From positions 1 to 36,272 of the forward strand of contig JAICWH010000020.1 of assembly GCA_025934895.1 (NCBI GenBank): a DNA stretch of 36,272 nt, in the 5' to 3' direction. Shown here piece after piece: positions 2,024-19,422 of the stretch (position 1 is the first letter of the stretch; the number at the start of each line of letters is the position of its first letter). The stretch is from Nocardioidaceae bacterium (GTDB lineage: Bacteria; Actinomycetota; Actinomycetes; Propionibacteriales; Nocardioidaceae). A program made the translations under genes and the position numbers. The notes under the pieces are model-generated. The model was not told where the DNA came from and did not search any database. It saw nothing but the letters and a program-made list of their open reading frames with translations.

Positions 2024-3649
2024 TCACCGCGCGGGCTGCTCCCCCTGCCGGCGCAGACCGTAGGTGACGGCGTCCACGAGGGCTCCCCAGGACGCCTCGA
2101 TCACGTTGTGTCCCACCCCGACCGTCACCCAGGTGCTCTTGCCGTCGGTGGTCTCGATCAGGACCCGGGTGACGGCGTCGGTGCCGTGGCCCTGGTCCAG
2201 GATGCGCACCTTGTAGTCGATGAGCTCGAACCTCGCGACCTCGGGGTAGGCCTGGCCGATCGCCTCGCGCAGCGACTGGTCGAGCGCGTTGACCGGACCG
2301 TTGCCCTCGCCGGTGGTGACGATCCGCGCGCCACCCGCCAGCAGCTTGATGGTCGCCTCGGACACGGCCTCCGCACCGGGGCTCGAGTCGGTGATCACCC
2401 GCCAGGACTCGACCTCGAAGTACGACGGGCGGGCGCCCTCCACCTCCTCGACGAGGAGCAGCTCGAACGACGCGTCGGCGGCCTCGAACGTGTACCCGCT
2501 CGACTCCAGGTCCTTGACCCGGTTGGTGATCCGGGTGATCAGCTCCTTGCCGTCGGGACGGGAGGCGAGGTCGAACCCGAGCTCCGCGCCCTTGAGCTCG
2601 ATGCTCGCGCGGCCGGCCATGTCGGAGACCAGCAGTCGCATGTCGTTGCCCACCAGCAGGGGCTCCATGTGCTGGTAGAGGTTCGGGTCCACCTTGATGG
2701 CACTGGCATGCAGCCCGGCCTTGTGCGCGAACGCGCTCGTCCCGACGTAGGGCTGCCGCGACGCGGGCGGGACGTTCGTGACCTCGGCGACCGCGTGCGC
2801 GATACGGGTGGCCTCTCGCAGCCGGCCCTCGGGCAGGACCGGGCGCCCGAGCTTGAGCTCGAGGTTCGCGATGACCGAGACGAGGTCCGCGTTGCCGGTC
2901 CGCTCGCCGTAGCCGTTCAGCGTGCCCTGCACGTGGGTAGCGCCCGCCTCCACCGCAGCGAGGGAGTTCGCGACCGCGCAGCCGGTGTCGTTGTGGCAGT
3001 GGATGCCGACCCGGGCACCGGTCGACGAGAGGACGTCGGCCACCACGTCGCCGACCCAGGGCGGCAGCATCCCCCCGTTGGTGTCACAGAGCGCGAGGAC
3101 CTCGGCCCCGGCGTCGGACGCCGTGCGCAGCACCTCGAGCGCGTAGTCGCGGTTGTCGCGGTAGCCGTCGAAGAAGTGCTCCGCGTCGAGGAACACCCGC
3201 TGACCCTCGGCGCGCAGGTGGGTGACGGTGTCGCGGACCATCTCCAGGTTCTCGTCCAGGGTGGTCCGCAGCGCCAGCTCGACGTGCCGGTCGTGCGACT
3301 TCGCCACCAGCGTGACGACCGCAGCCCCGCTGTCGCGCAGGGCGGCGACCTGCGGGTCGTCGGCGGCGGCCACCCCGGGGCGCCGGGTTGCGCCGAACGC
3401 GGCGAGCGTCGCGCTGCCCAGCTCGAGCTCCGTGCAGGCCCTGCGGAAGAACTCGGTGTCCTTGGGGTTCGCGCCCGGCCAGCCGCCCTCGATGAAGCCG
3501 ACTCCGAGACCGTCGAGCTGCCGCGCGATGGAGAGCTTGTCCGCGACGGACAGGTTCAGGCCCTCCTGCTGCGCACCGTCGCGCAGCGTGGTGTCGTAGA
3601 CCTGGAACGCAGGGTCCGTGCTCGGCGTCGTCGGCGGGGTCAAGCTCAT
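2024..3649 (-). CDS. cimA: (R)-citramalate synthase
   Basis: A 541-residue member of the DRE-TIM/HMGL-like family. It condenses pyruvate and acetyl-CoA to citramalate, the entry to threonine-independent isoleucine synthesis. The N-terminal TIM barrel carries the [12 protein letters not shown] motif at about residues 19-30, followed by CDTNGG and the metal-binding HCHNDTGCA block. The C-terminal third is the LeuA-like allosteric dimer domain. The Met at 3649 is chosen over an upstream in-frame start at 3694 because GAGGA lies at good spacing and the next 15 residues upstream are basic and unlike the family. 2-Isopropylmalate synthase is the main alternative, but the sequence resembles the CimA branch and the leader upstream carries Ile codons, not Leu codons. 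The downstream enzymes are LeuCD-type (outside the window) and LeuB. Confidence 0.92.
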
Positions 3650-3685: not shown

Positions 3686-3716
3686 GGCCAACAAAAAGAC
3701 CCCCCGTCGGATACGA
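3686..3716 (-). terminator. Attenuator terminator hairpin before cimA
   Basis: Read on the minus strand, GACCTCTCG and CGGGGGGTC form a 9-bp stem (three G-U pairs) around the loop TATCCGA. TTTTTG follows directly. This is a textbook intrinsic terminator lying between a short leader ORF and the cimA start. A terminator in front of a gene with no other gene between implies attenuation rather than termination of the previous unit. Confidence 0.8.
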
Positions 3717-3720
3717 GAGG

Positions 3721-3749
3721 TCGGCGCGCCGGGCGTAGCCCTGGCGCGC
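3721..3749 (-). promoter_or_regulatory. Upstream hairpin of the cimA leader (pause or 1:2 stem)
   Basis: Immediately after the leader stop, the minus strand has GCGCGCC paired with GGCGCGC (7 bp). A GGG/CCC helix is inside, separated by a bulged A. It lies between the leader peptide and the terminator, where the pause hairpin of a classical attenuator sits. An antiterminator pairing could not be identified by eye. Confidence 0.55.
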
Positions 3750-3778
3750 TAGGTGATGATGATGCGGTGATGCGGCAC
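3749..3778 (-). CDS. Isoleucine-rich leader peptide MPHHRIIIT (cimA attenuator)
   Basis: A 9-codon ORF starts with GTG at 3778, reads MPHHRIIIT and ends with TAG. Three consecutive ATC isoleucine codons stand two codons before the stop, directly ahead of two hairpins, the second an intrinsic terminator. In ribosome-mediated attenuation, starvation for the repeated amino acid stalls the ribosome and prevents terminator formation. CimA commits carbon to isoleucine, so Ile as the sensed amino acid makes sense. No clear Shine-Dalgarno is visible, so the peptide may be translated from a nearly leaderless RNA. The reading frame is certain; translation is inferred. Confidence 0.7.
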   Translation of the reverse strand: MPHHRIIIT

Positions 3779-3825
3779 GGTCCGAGTCTGCCACCGATGC
3801 GCACCCGGAGGAAGCCGGGTCCGGA

Positions 3826-3856: not shown

Positions 3857-5494
3857 TCAGAACCAGCGCAGGAACCGGCCGAGGACGGTGCCGGTCCGCC
3901 ACGGAGCCCCGACCGCCGGGTCCCAGACGGCACCACCCTGAGCCAGTGCGTAGGCGAACCCGGCAGCGGCGGCGGTCACCACGGCGACTGCCAGCCAACC
4001 GGTCCAGGGGTGAGCGGTCGCCGAGTGGACCAGCCGGCGGGTCGGGACCCGGACCCGGCGAGACCCTGGTCCCCACCACAGCGACGAGGCCAGCACGGCT
4101 CCCATCAGGAGCAGCCCGGGAACCAGCGGCGCCCGGAACAGCACGTAGGCCACCCCCACGGCGAGGGCGACGAAGGCCGACCAGAGCAGCAGCATCAGGG
4201 TCCCCGCCGTCGCCACCACGAGGTACCACGGTGCCGAGAGCAGGGTGAGCGCGCCGTCGTACCAGCGACGACGGCCACGCATCCGCTGCCGGGCGGCCGC
4301 GGACTCCGTGGTCCAGGAGACGGTCCGGATCCCCAGGGTGAGCAGGCACAGCGCCTCCAGGCTGAGGTAGGGCGCCTTGGCGAAGCCGAGCGCGACGGTC
4401 GCGAACAGGCCGCCCAGCAGGGTGCCGCGCTGCAGCCGGGCCGTGCCCGGCGGCGCGGCGCCCCGGCCCCGAGACGGCGCCGCCGGGTACGGCGCCCGCA
4501 CCGCCGGACCGGGTGGCGCCACAAGGGTCGCCGGCGGCCCACTGTCCGGGGAGGCGTCTCGTCCTGCGGTCCGCGGCATCGCCGAGGTCACCGCCGAGGC
4601 GTCCTGACGGGCGGGAGGCGCCAGCACCAACGGCATGGTCGGCACGTCGGATGCTGAGCGAGCCACGGGTCGAGCGGGTGCGCCTGATCCGGCCCGCGAC
4701 AAGTGGGAGAGGATCTCCGACGTGCTCGGCCGGTCGCCGGGCTCCGGCGCCAGGCACCGCCTGACCAGCCGCAGCAACGCGGGGGGCACGGCGCTCAGGT
4801 CGTGCTCGCCGCGGCGCACGCGGTCCATGATCGCCATCGCCGGCCCGGTGCCGAACGGCGGGCGGCCGGTCGCGGCGAACACCATGGTGGCCGCCCACGA
4901 GTGCACGTCCGAGGCGGTCGTGGCGTCCTCGCCGTAGAGGATCTCCGGGGCCAGGTATCCCGGAGTCCCGAGCAGCCAGCCGGTCTGCGTGAGTCGCGGG
5001 TCCTCCGCAAGCCGAGCCAGCCCGAAGTCGATCAGCACCGGGGCGCGGCCCTCGAGGAGCACGTTCGACGGCTTGATGTCGCGGTGCAGCACGCCGACCC
5101 GGTGCACGGCGACGACCGCCTCGATCAGGCCGGAGGCGAGAAAGGCCAGGTCGCGGCCGGAGATCGGGCCGTGCTGCCGGACATGCTCGTGCAGCGACAG
5201 GCCGGGCACGTAGCGGGTGGCGACGAAGGGCGTCTCGCCCCATGGGTCCGCGTCGAGCACCTCGGCGACCCAGGGGCTGGTGACGCGGCGCAGCGAGGCG
5301 ACCTCGCGGGCCAGTCGGGTTCTGGCCTCGTCGTCGCCCACCACGTGCTGCCGCAGCACCTTCAGGGCGACCCGCGAGCCGTCCGGAGCCTGCGCGAGGT
5401 GCACGACGCCCATGCCGCCCTCGCCGATGCGGGCCAGCAGGCGGTAGCGGCCGATCCATACGCTGCTGGTCTCCGTCGGCTGCTGGTTCACCAC
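3857..5494 (-). CDS. Membrane-anchored Ser/Thr protein kinase with multi-pass C-terminal domain
   Basis: A 545-residue Hanks-type kinase. The catalytic domain (about 14-270) has the glycine loop IGEGGMGVV, Lys45 in VALKVL, HRD at 137-139 in HRDIKPSN, DFG at 156-158 and the activation segment ending in TPGYLAPE, so it should be active. A Pro/Ala-rich linker (about 270-340) follows. Then come about four to five hydrophobic segments up to the C-terminus, with no PASTA, NHL or other extracellular sensor domain visible. Typical actinobacterial Pkn proteins have a single membrane span, so this multi-span tail is unusual. The start is one of two adjacent GTG codons inside an 11-bp tandem repeat, with no good ribosome site. 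The substrate is unknown. Its place between ilvE and cimA does not by itself prove a role in amino acid metabolism. Confidence 0.9.
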   Translation of the reverse strand: MVNQQPTETSSVWIGRYRLLARIGEGGMGVVHLAQAPDGSRVALKVLRQHVVGDDEARTRLAREVASLRRVTSPWVAEVLDADPWGETPFVATRYVPGLSLHEHVRQHGPISGRDLAFLASGLIEAVVAVHRVGVLHRDIKPSNVLLEGRAPVLIDFGLARLAEDPRLTQTGWLLGTPGYLAPEILYGEDATTASDVHSWAATMVFAATGRPPFGTGPAMAIMDRVRRGEHDLSAVPPALLRLVRRCLAPEPGDRPSTSEILSHLSRAGSGAPARPVARSASDVPTMPLVLAPPARQDASAVTSAMPRTAGRDASPDSGPPATLVAPPGPAVRAPYPAAPSRGRGAAPPGTARLQRGTLLGGLFATVALGFAKAPYLSLEALCLLTLGIRTVSWTTESAAARQRMRGRRRWYDGALTLLSAPWYLVVATAGTLMLLLWSAFVALAVGVAYVLFRAPLVPGLLLMGAVLASSLWWGPGSRRVRVPTRRLVHSATAHPWTGWLAVAVVTAAAAGFAYALAQGGAVWDPAVGAPWRTGTVLGRFLRWF

Positions 5495-17476: not shown

Positions 17477-19264
17477 TCACGGGTGTTCGCCGCCTTCCAG
17501 GTCGTCGTCCTCATAGGTGGGTGCCATGTCCCGGGCGAACTTGATGTCGTCGTTGCTGGTGCCGGCGGCGACCATCGGCCACACCATCGCGTCACGGTGC
17601 ACGCGGAAGTCGACGACGACCGGCACGTCGTTGATCTCCATGGCCTTGGTGATCGTGGAGTCGACGTCCTCGGCGGAGTCGCACGACAGCCCGACGCACC
17701 CGTAGGCGTCCGCCAGCTTCACGAAGTCCGGGATGCGCCGGTGGGACTCGCGCTGGAGGTTGGTGTTGGAGTAGCGCTCCTTGTAGAAGAGTGTCTGCCA
17801 CTGCCTGACCATCCCGAGCGACTCGTTGTTGATGATCGCGACCTTGATCGGGATGTTCTCGATCGAGCAGGTGGCGAGCTCCTGGTTGGTCATCTGGAAG
17901 CAGCCGTCGCCGTCGATCGCCCACACGGTGGCCTCCGGCCTCCCGACCTTGGCGCCCATCGCGGCGGGCACGGCGAAGCCCATGGTGCCCAGCCCCCCGG
18001 AGTTGATCCAGGTGCAGGGGTGCTCGTAGCCGATGAACTGGGCGGCCCACATCTGGTGCTGGCCGACTCCGCTGGCGTAGACCGCCTCCGGTCCGGCGAT
18101 CCTGCCCAGCCGCTCGATGACGTACTGCGGCGCCAGGGAGCCGTCGGCCGGGGCGTCGTAGCCGAGGGGATACCTCTTCTTGATCCCGGCCAGGAACTGC
18201 ACCCAGGCCTCATAGTCCCCCTGCTCGCCGGCGTTGGCAGCGGTCCGCAGGGCCACGACCAGGTCGGCGATGACCTCGCGAGCGTCACCCACGATGGGTA
18301 CGTCGACGTGCCGGTTCTTGCCGATCTCCGCGGGGTCGATGTCGGCGTGGATCACCTTCGCGTGCGGCGCGAACGAGTCGAGGTTCCCGGTGACCCGGTC
18401 GTCGAACCGGGCGCCGAGGCTGATGATCAGGTCACTGCGCTGCAGCCCGGCGACGGCCGCGACGGTGCCGTGCATCCCGGGCATGCCGAGGTGCTGCACG
18501 TGGCTGTCGGGAAAGGCGCCACGGGCCATCAGCGTGGTCACGACCGGCATGCCGGTCAGCTCGGCGAGGGCCAGCAGCTCCCGGCTGGCGCGCGAGCGGA
18601 TGACCCCACCTCCGACGTACAGCACCGGGCGTCGGGCCTCGAGCATCAGCCGGGCGGCCTCACGGATCTGCTTGGCGTGCGGCCGCGTCACCGGGCGGTA
18701 GCCAGGAAGGGACAGCTCGCTCGGCCACCGGAAGCTGGTCTGCGCCTGCATCGCGTCCTTGGCGACGTCGACGAGGACGGGCCCGGGGCGTCCCGTTGAG
18801 GCGATGTAGAAGGCCTCGGCGATGGTCCGCGGGATCTCGGCAGGGTCGGTGACCAGGAAGTTGTGCTTCGTGATCGGCATCGTGATGCCGCGGATGTCGG
18901 CCTCCTGGAAGGCGTCCGTGCCGATCGACCGGCTCGAGACCTGCCCGGTAACCGCGACCATCGGCACCGAGTCCATGTAGGCGTCCGCCAGCGGGGTGAC
19001 GAGGTTCGTCGCCCCCGGACCGCTGGTCGCCATCGCGACCCCGACCTTGCCGGTCGCAGCGGCGTAGCCCTGGGCGGCGTGGCCGGCGCCCTGCTCGTGG
19101 CGGACCAGGATGTGCCTGATCTTCACGGAGTCGAACAGCGGGTCGTAGGCCGGGAGGATCGCCCCACCCGGGATGCCGAAGATGTTCTCGGTGCCCGCGC
19201 ACTCCAGGGCTCTGACCAGGCTCTGCGCACCTGTCACGGCAGCCCCGGCGTCCTGCTCGCTCAT
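17477..19264 (-). CDS. ilvB: Acetolactate synthase large (catalytic) subunit
   Basis: A 595-residue ThDP-dependent enzyme with three alpha/beta domains. It joins two pyruvates to acetolactate (Val, Leu) or pyruvate with 2-oxobutyrate to acetohydroxybutyrate (Ile). The catalytic Glu is in [14 protein letters not shown] (about 55). The ThDP/Mg motif is [14 protein letters not shown] to IINNESLG (about 470-505), and the middle FAD-like domain includes the [12 protein letters not shown] block. ATG at 19264 with AAAGG six bases upstream. The unit begins after an attenuator with a Leu/Ile/Val leader. Confidence 0.97.
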
Positions 19265-19318
19265 GATGACCTTTCTCTCGCTCGGTACAAGTATGGGTCC
19301 GCATCACACCAGCCCAAC

Positions 19319-19353
19319 AAAAAGCCCCTCGGCCCGGAGGGCAGGCGAGGGGC
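19319..19353 (-). terminator. Attenuator terminator before ilvB
   Basis: On the minus strand GCCCCTCG and CGAGGGGC form a perfect 8-bp stem (19346-19353 with 19324-19331), with an inner GCCC/GGGC helix and then TTTTTG. It lies between the leader peptide and the ilvB start, so it is an intrinsic terminator positioned for attenuation. An upstream GACGCG in the leader can pair with CGCGTC just before the terminator, a possible antiterminator-side contact. Confidence 0.85.
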
Positions 19354-19380
19354 GACGCGCGTGCGTGGAGGTCGTGACCT

Positions 19381-19422
19381 TCAGCAGACGCGTCCGGGGC
19401 GTACAAGAATGTCGAGACGCAT
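19381..19422 (-). CDS. Leader peptide MRLDILVRPGRVC (ilvBN attenuator)
   Basis: A 13-codon ORF from ATG at 19422 to TGA. It carries one codon each for Leu, Ile, Leu, Val and Val (CTC, ATT, CTT, GTA, GTC). ATT, CTT and GTA are rarer codon types in this GC-rich genome, which favours ribosome pausing. A strong terminator follows 28 bases later. Multivalent attenuation of ilvBN(C) by such leaders is established in Corynebacterium glutamicum; this copy is inferred by likeness. Confidence 0.8.
   Translation of the reverse strand: MRLDILVRPGRVC

Follow-up and report, generated by a model that had tools for sequence, protein, structure and literature searches.

Is the gap in front of a citramalate synthase gene in a member of the Nocardioidaceae a regulatory leader, and which amino acid would such a leader sense? 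The question is raised by a 36,272-nucleotide stretch of DNA (assembly GCA_025934895.1, contig JAICWH010000020.1; hereafter the window), in which cimA lies downstream of a kinase-like gene on the same strand (3857-5494, ending at 3857). An earlier note, made from the letters alone, had placed in this gap a short reading frame with isoleucine codons, a GC hairpin and a terminator, and had tied the codons to the control of cimA. From the comparison with related loci given below, we conclude that the leader is very probably an isoleucine-responsive, ribosome-mediated transcription attenuator.

The gene and its leader

The product of the gene scores 645.9 bits with TIGR00977, for which the cut-off is 450, and the 2-isopropylmalate synthase models stay under their own cut-offs among the matches listed (25 families); the preference of the earlier note for cimA over leuA is thus borne out. 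The nearest cimA loci in named genomes belong to a Nocardioidaceae MAG (88%) and to Nocardioides sp. zg-1308 (83%).

Table 1. Positions of the features discussed, in window coordinates
Feature	Positions	Strand	Basis
cimA, citramalate synthase, 541 aa, presumed controlled gene	2024..3649	(-)	NCBIfam TIGR00977 equivalog
Terminator U-tract TTTTT	3693..3697	(-)	sequence
Predicted intrinsic terminator hairpin, GACCTCTCGT...ACGGGGGGTC, 1 nt past P1	3698..3722	(-)	folding
GC hairpin P1, arms 3749-3743 / 3730-3724 plus inner stem	3724..3749	(-)	folding and sequence
uORF, MPHHRIIIT then stop, GTG start	3749..3778	(-)	read from sequence
-10-like box CAGACT, extended -10 form in TGGCAGACT	3785..3790	(-)	sequence; putative promoter role
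ilvB leader: uORF MRLDILVRPGRVC then stop (ATT CTT GTA = Ile-Leu-Val), P1, abutting terminator	19318..19422	(-)	sequence and R2

The features of the gap are collected in Table 1. The upstream open reading frame (uORF) reads GTG CCG CAT CAC CGC ATC ATC ATC ACC TAG, with its three Ile codons at 3763-3761, 3760-3758 and 3757-3755 and its stop at 3751-3749. Hairpin P1 (arms GCGCGCC...GGCGCGC) starts on the final base of that stop codon. Hence, sequence and folding agree with the GTG-started frame, the three consecutive ATC codons and the GC hairpin of the earlier note; its second hairpin with TTTTT also stands, except that folding gives the stem 10 bp (3722-3713 paired with 3707-3698) instead of the 9 bp proposed. 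The ATG of cimA (3649) follows 43 nt after the terminator. Since the -10-like box ends 6 nt before the GTG, the transcript may begin at the start codon of the uORF itself or close to it, which would make the leader peptide a product of leaderless translation. A loose -10 pattern ending 6-10 nt before the uORF start is present in 53/56 aligned cimA leaders, a favourable count in that the script took the -10/start pair closest to 8 nt.

Conservation, covariation and codon geometry

Relatives of the gene were collected in two ways. cimA was sought in 39 relatives, of which 38 gave a hit at E<=0.001 (paralogues also pass at this level), and 30 loci were fetched; a scan of named genomes contributed the best 80 of 583 confirmed loci, giving 110 loci in all. 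The element is present in 60 of these 110, with one duplicate pair counted twice: 56 in alignment A1, together with L031 (identical to L003), L047, L076 and L110. A1 consists of 52 elements chosen by a pattern that needs two adjacent Ile codons and four added by hand (L008, L015, L052 and L091); the duplicate L031 as well as L047 and L076 were left out of it. The remaining 50 loci are without the element or without upstream DNA, and in several of the element-less ones cimA sits, by eye, close behind an ilvE-like gene. Separately, at L085 (331-407, + strand) a 26-bit model match was observed, with a cimA relative that has no leader of its own about 1.1 kb downstream.

The window element is not a chance feature, because a covariance model (R2) made from 49 elements, with the loci labelled same-genus (L001-L006) and the duplicate L031 removed, still scores the window copy at 72.2 bits (E 4.3e-18 in 59 kb searched). 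This exclusion rests on tool-given genus labels, and a named locus such as L032 may still belong to that genus. Five same-genus elements obtain 69-74 bits under R2. A second model that contains the window element (R1) finds a single strong match in the window's own genome, at 76.1 bits, with the next at 20.0. Across the class, R1 matches in 200/296 genomes at E<=0.01, irrespective of gene, and cimA is detected in 236/296 at E<=1e-100. Positions were checked on the 150 matches listed for each of R1 and cimA: 101 could be judged, and 99 of these lie 4-208 nt upstream of a cimA match on the same strand, whereas 49 listed RNA matches were set aside as the cimA of those genomes was absent or not among the matches listed.

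In a sample of the phylum, 46/198 genomes match at E<=0.001, 36 of them outside the window's class. Among ten out-of-class loci viewed by eye, L245 carries the element before cimA with Ile codons; others have it before leuA (L236), a leuB-like gene (L248) or ilvB (several), and L239 and L249 gave no clear reading. The leader in front of the leuB-like gene at L248 is, by eye, Ile-coded. The earlier note had called for a comparison of this gap in relatives and would have fallen with a lack of conservation there; it does not fall, because the short ORF, the Ile codons and the terminator are kept far beyond the genus.

Both hairpins are supported by the alignment itself. RNAalifold, given the alignment alone, recovers P1 and the terminator, with both-side changes at 13/20 pairs. 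Over the 56 elements, the named structure pairs 95.9% of cells compared with 85.9% in shuffles, and doubly changed cells number 108 versus 30.1; neither value is reached by any of 500 shuffles, in counts that ignore the shared ancestry of the aligned elements. When partners are slid by 1-3 columns, pairing drops to 39.6-57.2%. The consensus helix of P1 (10 bp) is paired in 94.1% of cells with both-side changes at 7/10 pairs; the corresponding values for the terminator helix are 97.7% and 6/10. Three T columns of the U-tract are invariant, and conservation is otherwise concentrated in the Ile codons and the two stems, the loops being variable. P1 and the terminator are separated by 0 nt in 39 leaders and by 1 nt in 15, that is, in 54/56; for L052 this gap is unreliable because its row is misaligned.

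One arm deserves separate mention. The 5' arm of the terminator, ACCTC(T/C)CG (window 3722-3714), is strongly conserved despite a frequent U-G wobble partner, which is found at two positions in about half of the 56; it looks as if the arm were under a second constraint. A Shine-Dalgarno-like role for the GGGAGG arm was considered and set aside by eye.

An in-frame uORF that runs from start through Ile codons to stop is readable in all 56 aligned leaders, 31 starting with ATG and 25 with GTG. Given that 52 of those 56 had been picked partly by their Ile codons, the codon count was repeated without a codon requirement, on the 104 loci with an N-terminal cimA motif (in six of the 110 none was found), minus L031. 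This codon-blind scan found 59 loci with a good terminator, 58 of which have an adjoining P1, at a gap of 0 or 1 nt in 56/58. At least two in-frame Ile codons within the 24 nt before P1 occur in 56/58 of these tandems versus 35/1160 control windows. Departures from the Ile run in A1 are confined to L008 and L052, with one Ile codon each, and L015, with Ile-Ala-Ile.

The spacing of the codons is equally regular. The final Ile codon stands 8 nt (45 leaders) or 9 nt (11) before P1 in all 56. The uORF stop falls at -2/-3 relative to the P1 start in 37 leaders and at +7 to +19 in 19, and never reaches the 3' arm of P1 or beyond. A ribosome covers about nine nucleotides past its A-site codon. By this geometry, the front edge of a ribosome on the first Ile codon would lie about at the P1 start, and at the stop codon the ribosome would cover the 5' arm of P1; a ribosome on the last Ile codon would overlap P1 by about 4 nt, which counts against the model. 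Judged by its geometry, the leader has the layout of one in which a hairpin would fold or not according to the position of the ribosome.

The same layout at ilvB, leuS and other genes

As R1 had matched in front of other genes too, the DNA upstream of leuS and ilvB was read in relatives. The uORF-P1-terminator tandem precedes leuS in 22/27 loci examined and ilvB in 22/26; the scorer found none in the other 5 and 4, respectively, and L187 and L198 were skipped. The gap between P1 and terminator is at most 2 nt in 21/22 leuS and 20/22 ilvB leaders. The window itself has such an ilvB leader (Table 1), which R2 matches at 19317-19416 with 21.8 bits (E 6.3e-4), and the gene behind it matches TIGR00118. 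In the same genome, a leuS leader with two Leu codons, MCERLLPVRSR then stop, was observed with the same hairpin tandem (L168/L170, contig C149, near 18841-18933).

The codons differ with the gene. Ile-Ile is present in 53/56 cimA peptides and in none of those of leuS (0/21) or ilvB (0/17); Leu-Leu in 5/56, 20/21 and 10/17, and Leu-Val in 0/56, 1/21 and 17/17, in the same order. These counts omit L185 (leuS) and L201, L206, L207, L210 and L221 (ilvB), which gave no reliable uORF; at L221 there is apparently no leader at all. In addition, among four genomes of one family the ilvB leaders read LVVI in two and LVVL in one, with P1 and an abutting terminator by eye, and no such uORF was seen before ilvB in the fourth.

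Hence, the cimA leader belongs with the actinobacterial leaders of branched-chain amino acid genes, in that 7-11 nt separate its sensed codons from P1 and its terminator abuts P1. Specificity for isoleucine is supported because the same layout carries Leu codons at leuS and Leu-Val or Ile-Leu-Val codons at ilvB. Matched codons in a single layout, in effect a natural codon swap, form the strongest evidence that the codons would act as the sensor. Together with the conserved uORF, codons and terminator, this swap supports the link between Ile codons and cimA control that the earlier note had drawn.

Several further occurrences were observed. A Leu-coded version stands, by eye, before leuA-like genes at L154, L159 and L236 (MTNLLLT, MKHLLLIESARH and MSQNLLLT, respectively, each closed by a stop codon); G071 and G088, which are among the genomes with such leaders, gave no cimA match at E<=1e-100. 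In G219 and G138, a second strong Ile-type element (L146 and L149) precedes an ORF of about 100 aa that looks ACT-like by eye, and Pfam gave no match for the two proteins.

A model for the probable cimA attenuator and its alternatives

In the model, transcription would begin at the uORF or close by. With charged Ile-tRNA, the ribosome would pass the Ile codons and reach the stop at the base, in the 5' half or in the loop of P1; covering the 5' arm from there, it would keep P1 unfolded, the terminator would fold, and transcription would end before cimA. With Ile-tRNA scarce, the ribosome would stall on the Ile run, P1 would fold, the terminator would fail and cimA would be made. The promoter, the leaderless translation, the stalling and the direction of the response are all putative parts of this scheme.

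The least certain step is the one from P1 to the terminator, because no base competes for both helices. Partition functions give the terminator a mean pairing probability of 0.95 both in free RNA and with a stalled ribosome; when the ribosome stands on the stop codon, the mean is 0.91 and the minimum 0.33. The terminator is thus predicted to be stable in every modelled ribosome state, so base pairing alone makes no switch, and the small trend across the states runs opposite to the model. We infer that the exclusion would be steric: P1, lying 0-1 nt from the terminator, could not fit beside the terminator base in the RNA exit channel, and the two hairpins would exclude each other on RNA polymerase, though not in free RNA. 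It is possible, if still doubtful, that a single ancient attenuator with exchangeable codons is common to actinobacterial cimA, ilvB and leuS, and that its ribosome-gated P1 disables the abutting terminator sterically and without base competition. If this is true, mutation of the uORF start codon would lead to constitutive expression, the opposite of what holds for trp.

The main alternative to steric exclusion is that P1 acts as a pause hairpin, synchronizing RNA polymerase with the ribosome so that timing sets read-through. The spacing speaks for it: with P1 0-1 nt before the terminator in 54/56 leaders, the polymerase would be within the conserved ACCTC(T/C)CG arm when P1 folds. A pause hairpin alone, however, does not account for a rise in expression on stalling, as the terminator would fold all the same, and we consider this reading unlikely.

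Less probable still is classical attenuation, in which a stalled ribosome lets an antiterminator pair with an arm of the terminator. This is the usual model, and antiterminators have been named for Streptomyces leuS (Seliverstov 2005, in a figure legend), as has a pairing of the P1 loop with the terminator for the Corynebacterium ilvB-II motif (Narunsky 2023, in the part available). In our sets, however, complementarity is about that of shuffles. RNA upstream of the terminator has a mean z of +0.20 with the 3' arm and +0.66 with the 5' arm in 54 cimA elements, and the corresponding values are +0.35 and +0.94 for leuS and +0.57 and +0.76 for ilvB (22 elements each). Over 56 cimA elements, the P1 loop gives -0.09 with the 3' arm and +0.11 with the 5' arm, and the uORF +0.29 with the 3' arm; 0 to 2 single elements fall below z -2 per loop or uORF test. 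Overall, no antiterminator beyond composition-matched shuffles was found among upstream RNA, P1 loop, P1 3' arm and uORF against the terminator arms, the P1 3' arm being compared only with the 3' arm of the terminator. The cimA leader is not classed as trp-type because a base-sharing antiterminator was sought and not found. Two further pairings were considered: one in which tandem G-A pairs would prolong P1 into the terminator was set aside by eye, and one between GTTGCC, after the U-tract, and GGCAGAC of the -10 box was rejected as the box precedes the presumed transcript start.

That the element senses ppGpp, a ligand or a protein rather than Ile charging, with the uORF only tuning translation, is very improbable. 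Elsewhere, ppGpp riboswitches control some ilvB genes (PMC10272879); at the cimA leader, by contrast, the conserved bases are those of the Ile codons and the stems, and no Rfam family applies. A search of the window against Rfam, T-box included, gave no match at gathering, and one on nine element-bearing loci returned one sub-threshold snoRNA match (E 0.54). Finally, an ordinary intrinsic terminator of transcription from upstream, for example from the kinase-like gene, accompanied by a chance ORF, can practically be dismissed: any terminator would insulate cimA from that same-strand gene, yet the sequence farther upstream varies among loci (by eye) while the uORF, the Ile codons and P1 stay, the codons fit the gene that follows in each of three families, and the codon-to-P1 spacing is fixed.

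Relation to known leaders

In the E. coli trp operon, a stalled ribosome blocks the first hairpin and thereby frees the 2:3 antiterminator. There, as proposed for cimA, the position of the ribosome on a leader peptide sets termination; at cimA, in contrast, P1 would stay free to form during a stall, and the search gave no helix resembling 2:3.

Among actinobacteria, leaders have been described for trp, cys, ilvB, leuS and leuA, as well as T-boxes at ileS; the available text of Seliverstov 2005 reports no conserved structures for other amino-acid pathways and does not name cimA. The same text calls the exact mode at ilvB unclear and reports that, in S. coelicolor, replacing codons ahead of ilvBNC had no effect, which counts against the model. 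In M. tuberculosis, on the other hand, changing the LVVI codons of the ilvB1 leader to AAAA abolished induction in reporter experiments, and the accessible part of that paper proposes the same logic as we do for cimA (PMC13236596). The reannotation of S. lividans lists, in its available portion, eight attenuators, including the leaderless ilvL and leuL2 and without cimA.

The ilvB leaders (Seliverstov 2005; S. lividans ilvL, MRTRILVLGKRVG then stop; M. tuberculosis ilvB1, LVVI), as given in the accessible texts, likewise combine a uORF of sensed codons with a terminator, and in the relatives and the window their P1 abuts the terminator as at cimA. They carry Ile, Leu and Val codons before acetolactate synthase, whereas the cimA leader has an Ile run before cimA. 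The Streptomyces leuS attenuator (Seliverstov 2005; S. lividans leuL2, MRAVRLLLSEPR then stop) has its counterpart in the relatives' leuS leaders, in which uORF, P1 and terminator are arranged and spaced as at cimA; it differs in its Leu codons and in serving leucyl-tRNA synthetase, and the antiterminator that Seliverstov proposed was not found in the leuS sets analysed here. The Corynebacterium ilvB-II motif also comprises uORF, P1 and terminator (P2), and its reporter gave high expression in minimal medium but low expression in rich medium (Narunsky 2023, whose available text concerns ilvB motifs). Its proposed antiterminator joins the P1 loop to the right shoulder of P2, a pairing that at cimA is at chance, as the loop value over the 56 elements indicates. 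Lastly, the LEU element before leuA (Seliverstov 2005) resembles the cimA leader in having a leader peptide and a homologous enzyme family, but its codons are for Leu and it involves a pseudoknot with the Shine-Dalgarno box of leuA, in contrast to the Ile codons and clear predicted terminator of cimA. The run of Leu codons that defines this element is absent from the cimA leaders, whose codons are Ile.

The earlier note knew of no described Ile leader for actinobacterial cimA, and the open-licence literature, a coverage that mostly leaves subscription papers outside, likewise yielded no cimA attenuator among the papers listed; a word search for cimA in Naville 2010 and in the 2016 reinitiation paper gave none. 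The ilvB and leuS leaders are known, and what appears to be new is cimA among the actinobacterial leader-peptide attenuators of branched-chain amino acid genes.

For annotation, the leader separates cimA from leuA, and in engineering it could provide an Ile-responsive switch for GC-rich hosts. A base-pairing antiterminator was found in none of the three gene sets, and it is therefore testable whether an adjoining hairpin can switch off a terminator without shared bases. For the biology of these bacteria, the model would place a specific control point, one that senses the end product, on the threonine-independent route to isoleucine in actinobacteria, and the comparison shows a single leader layout reused across branched-chain amino acid genes, its codons altered to suit each gene.
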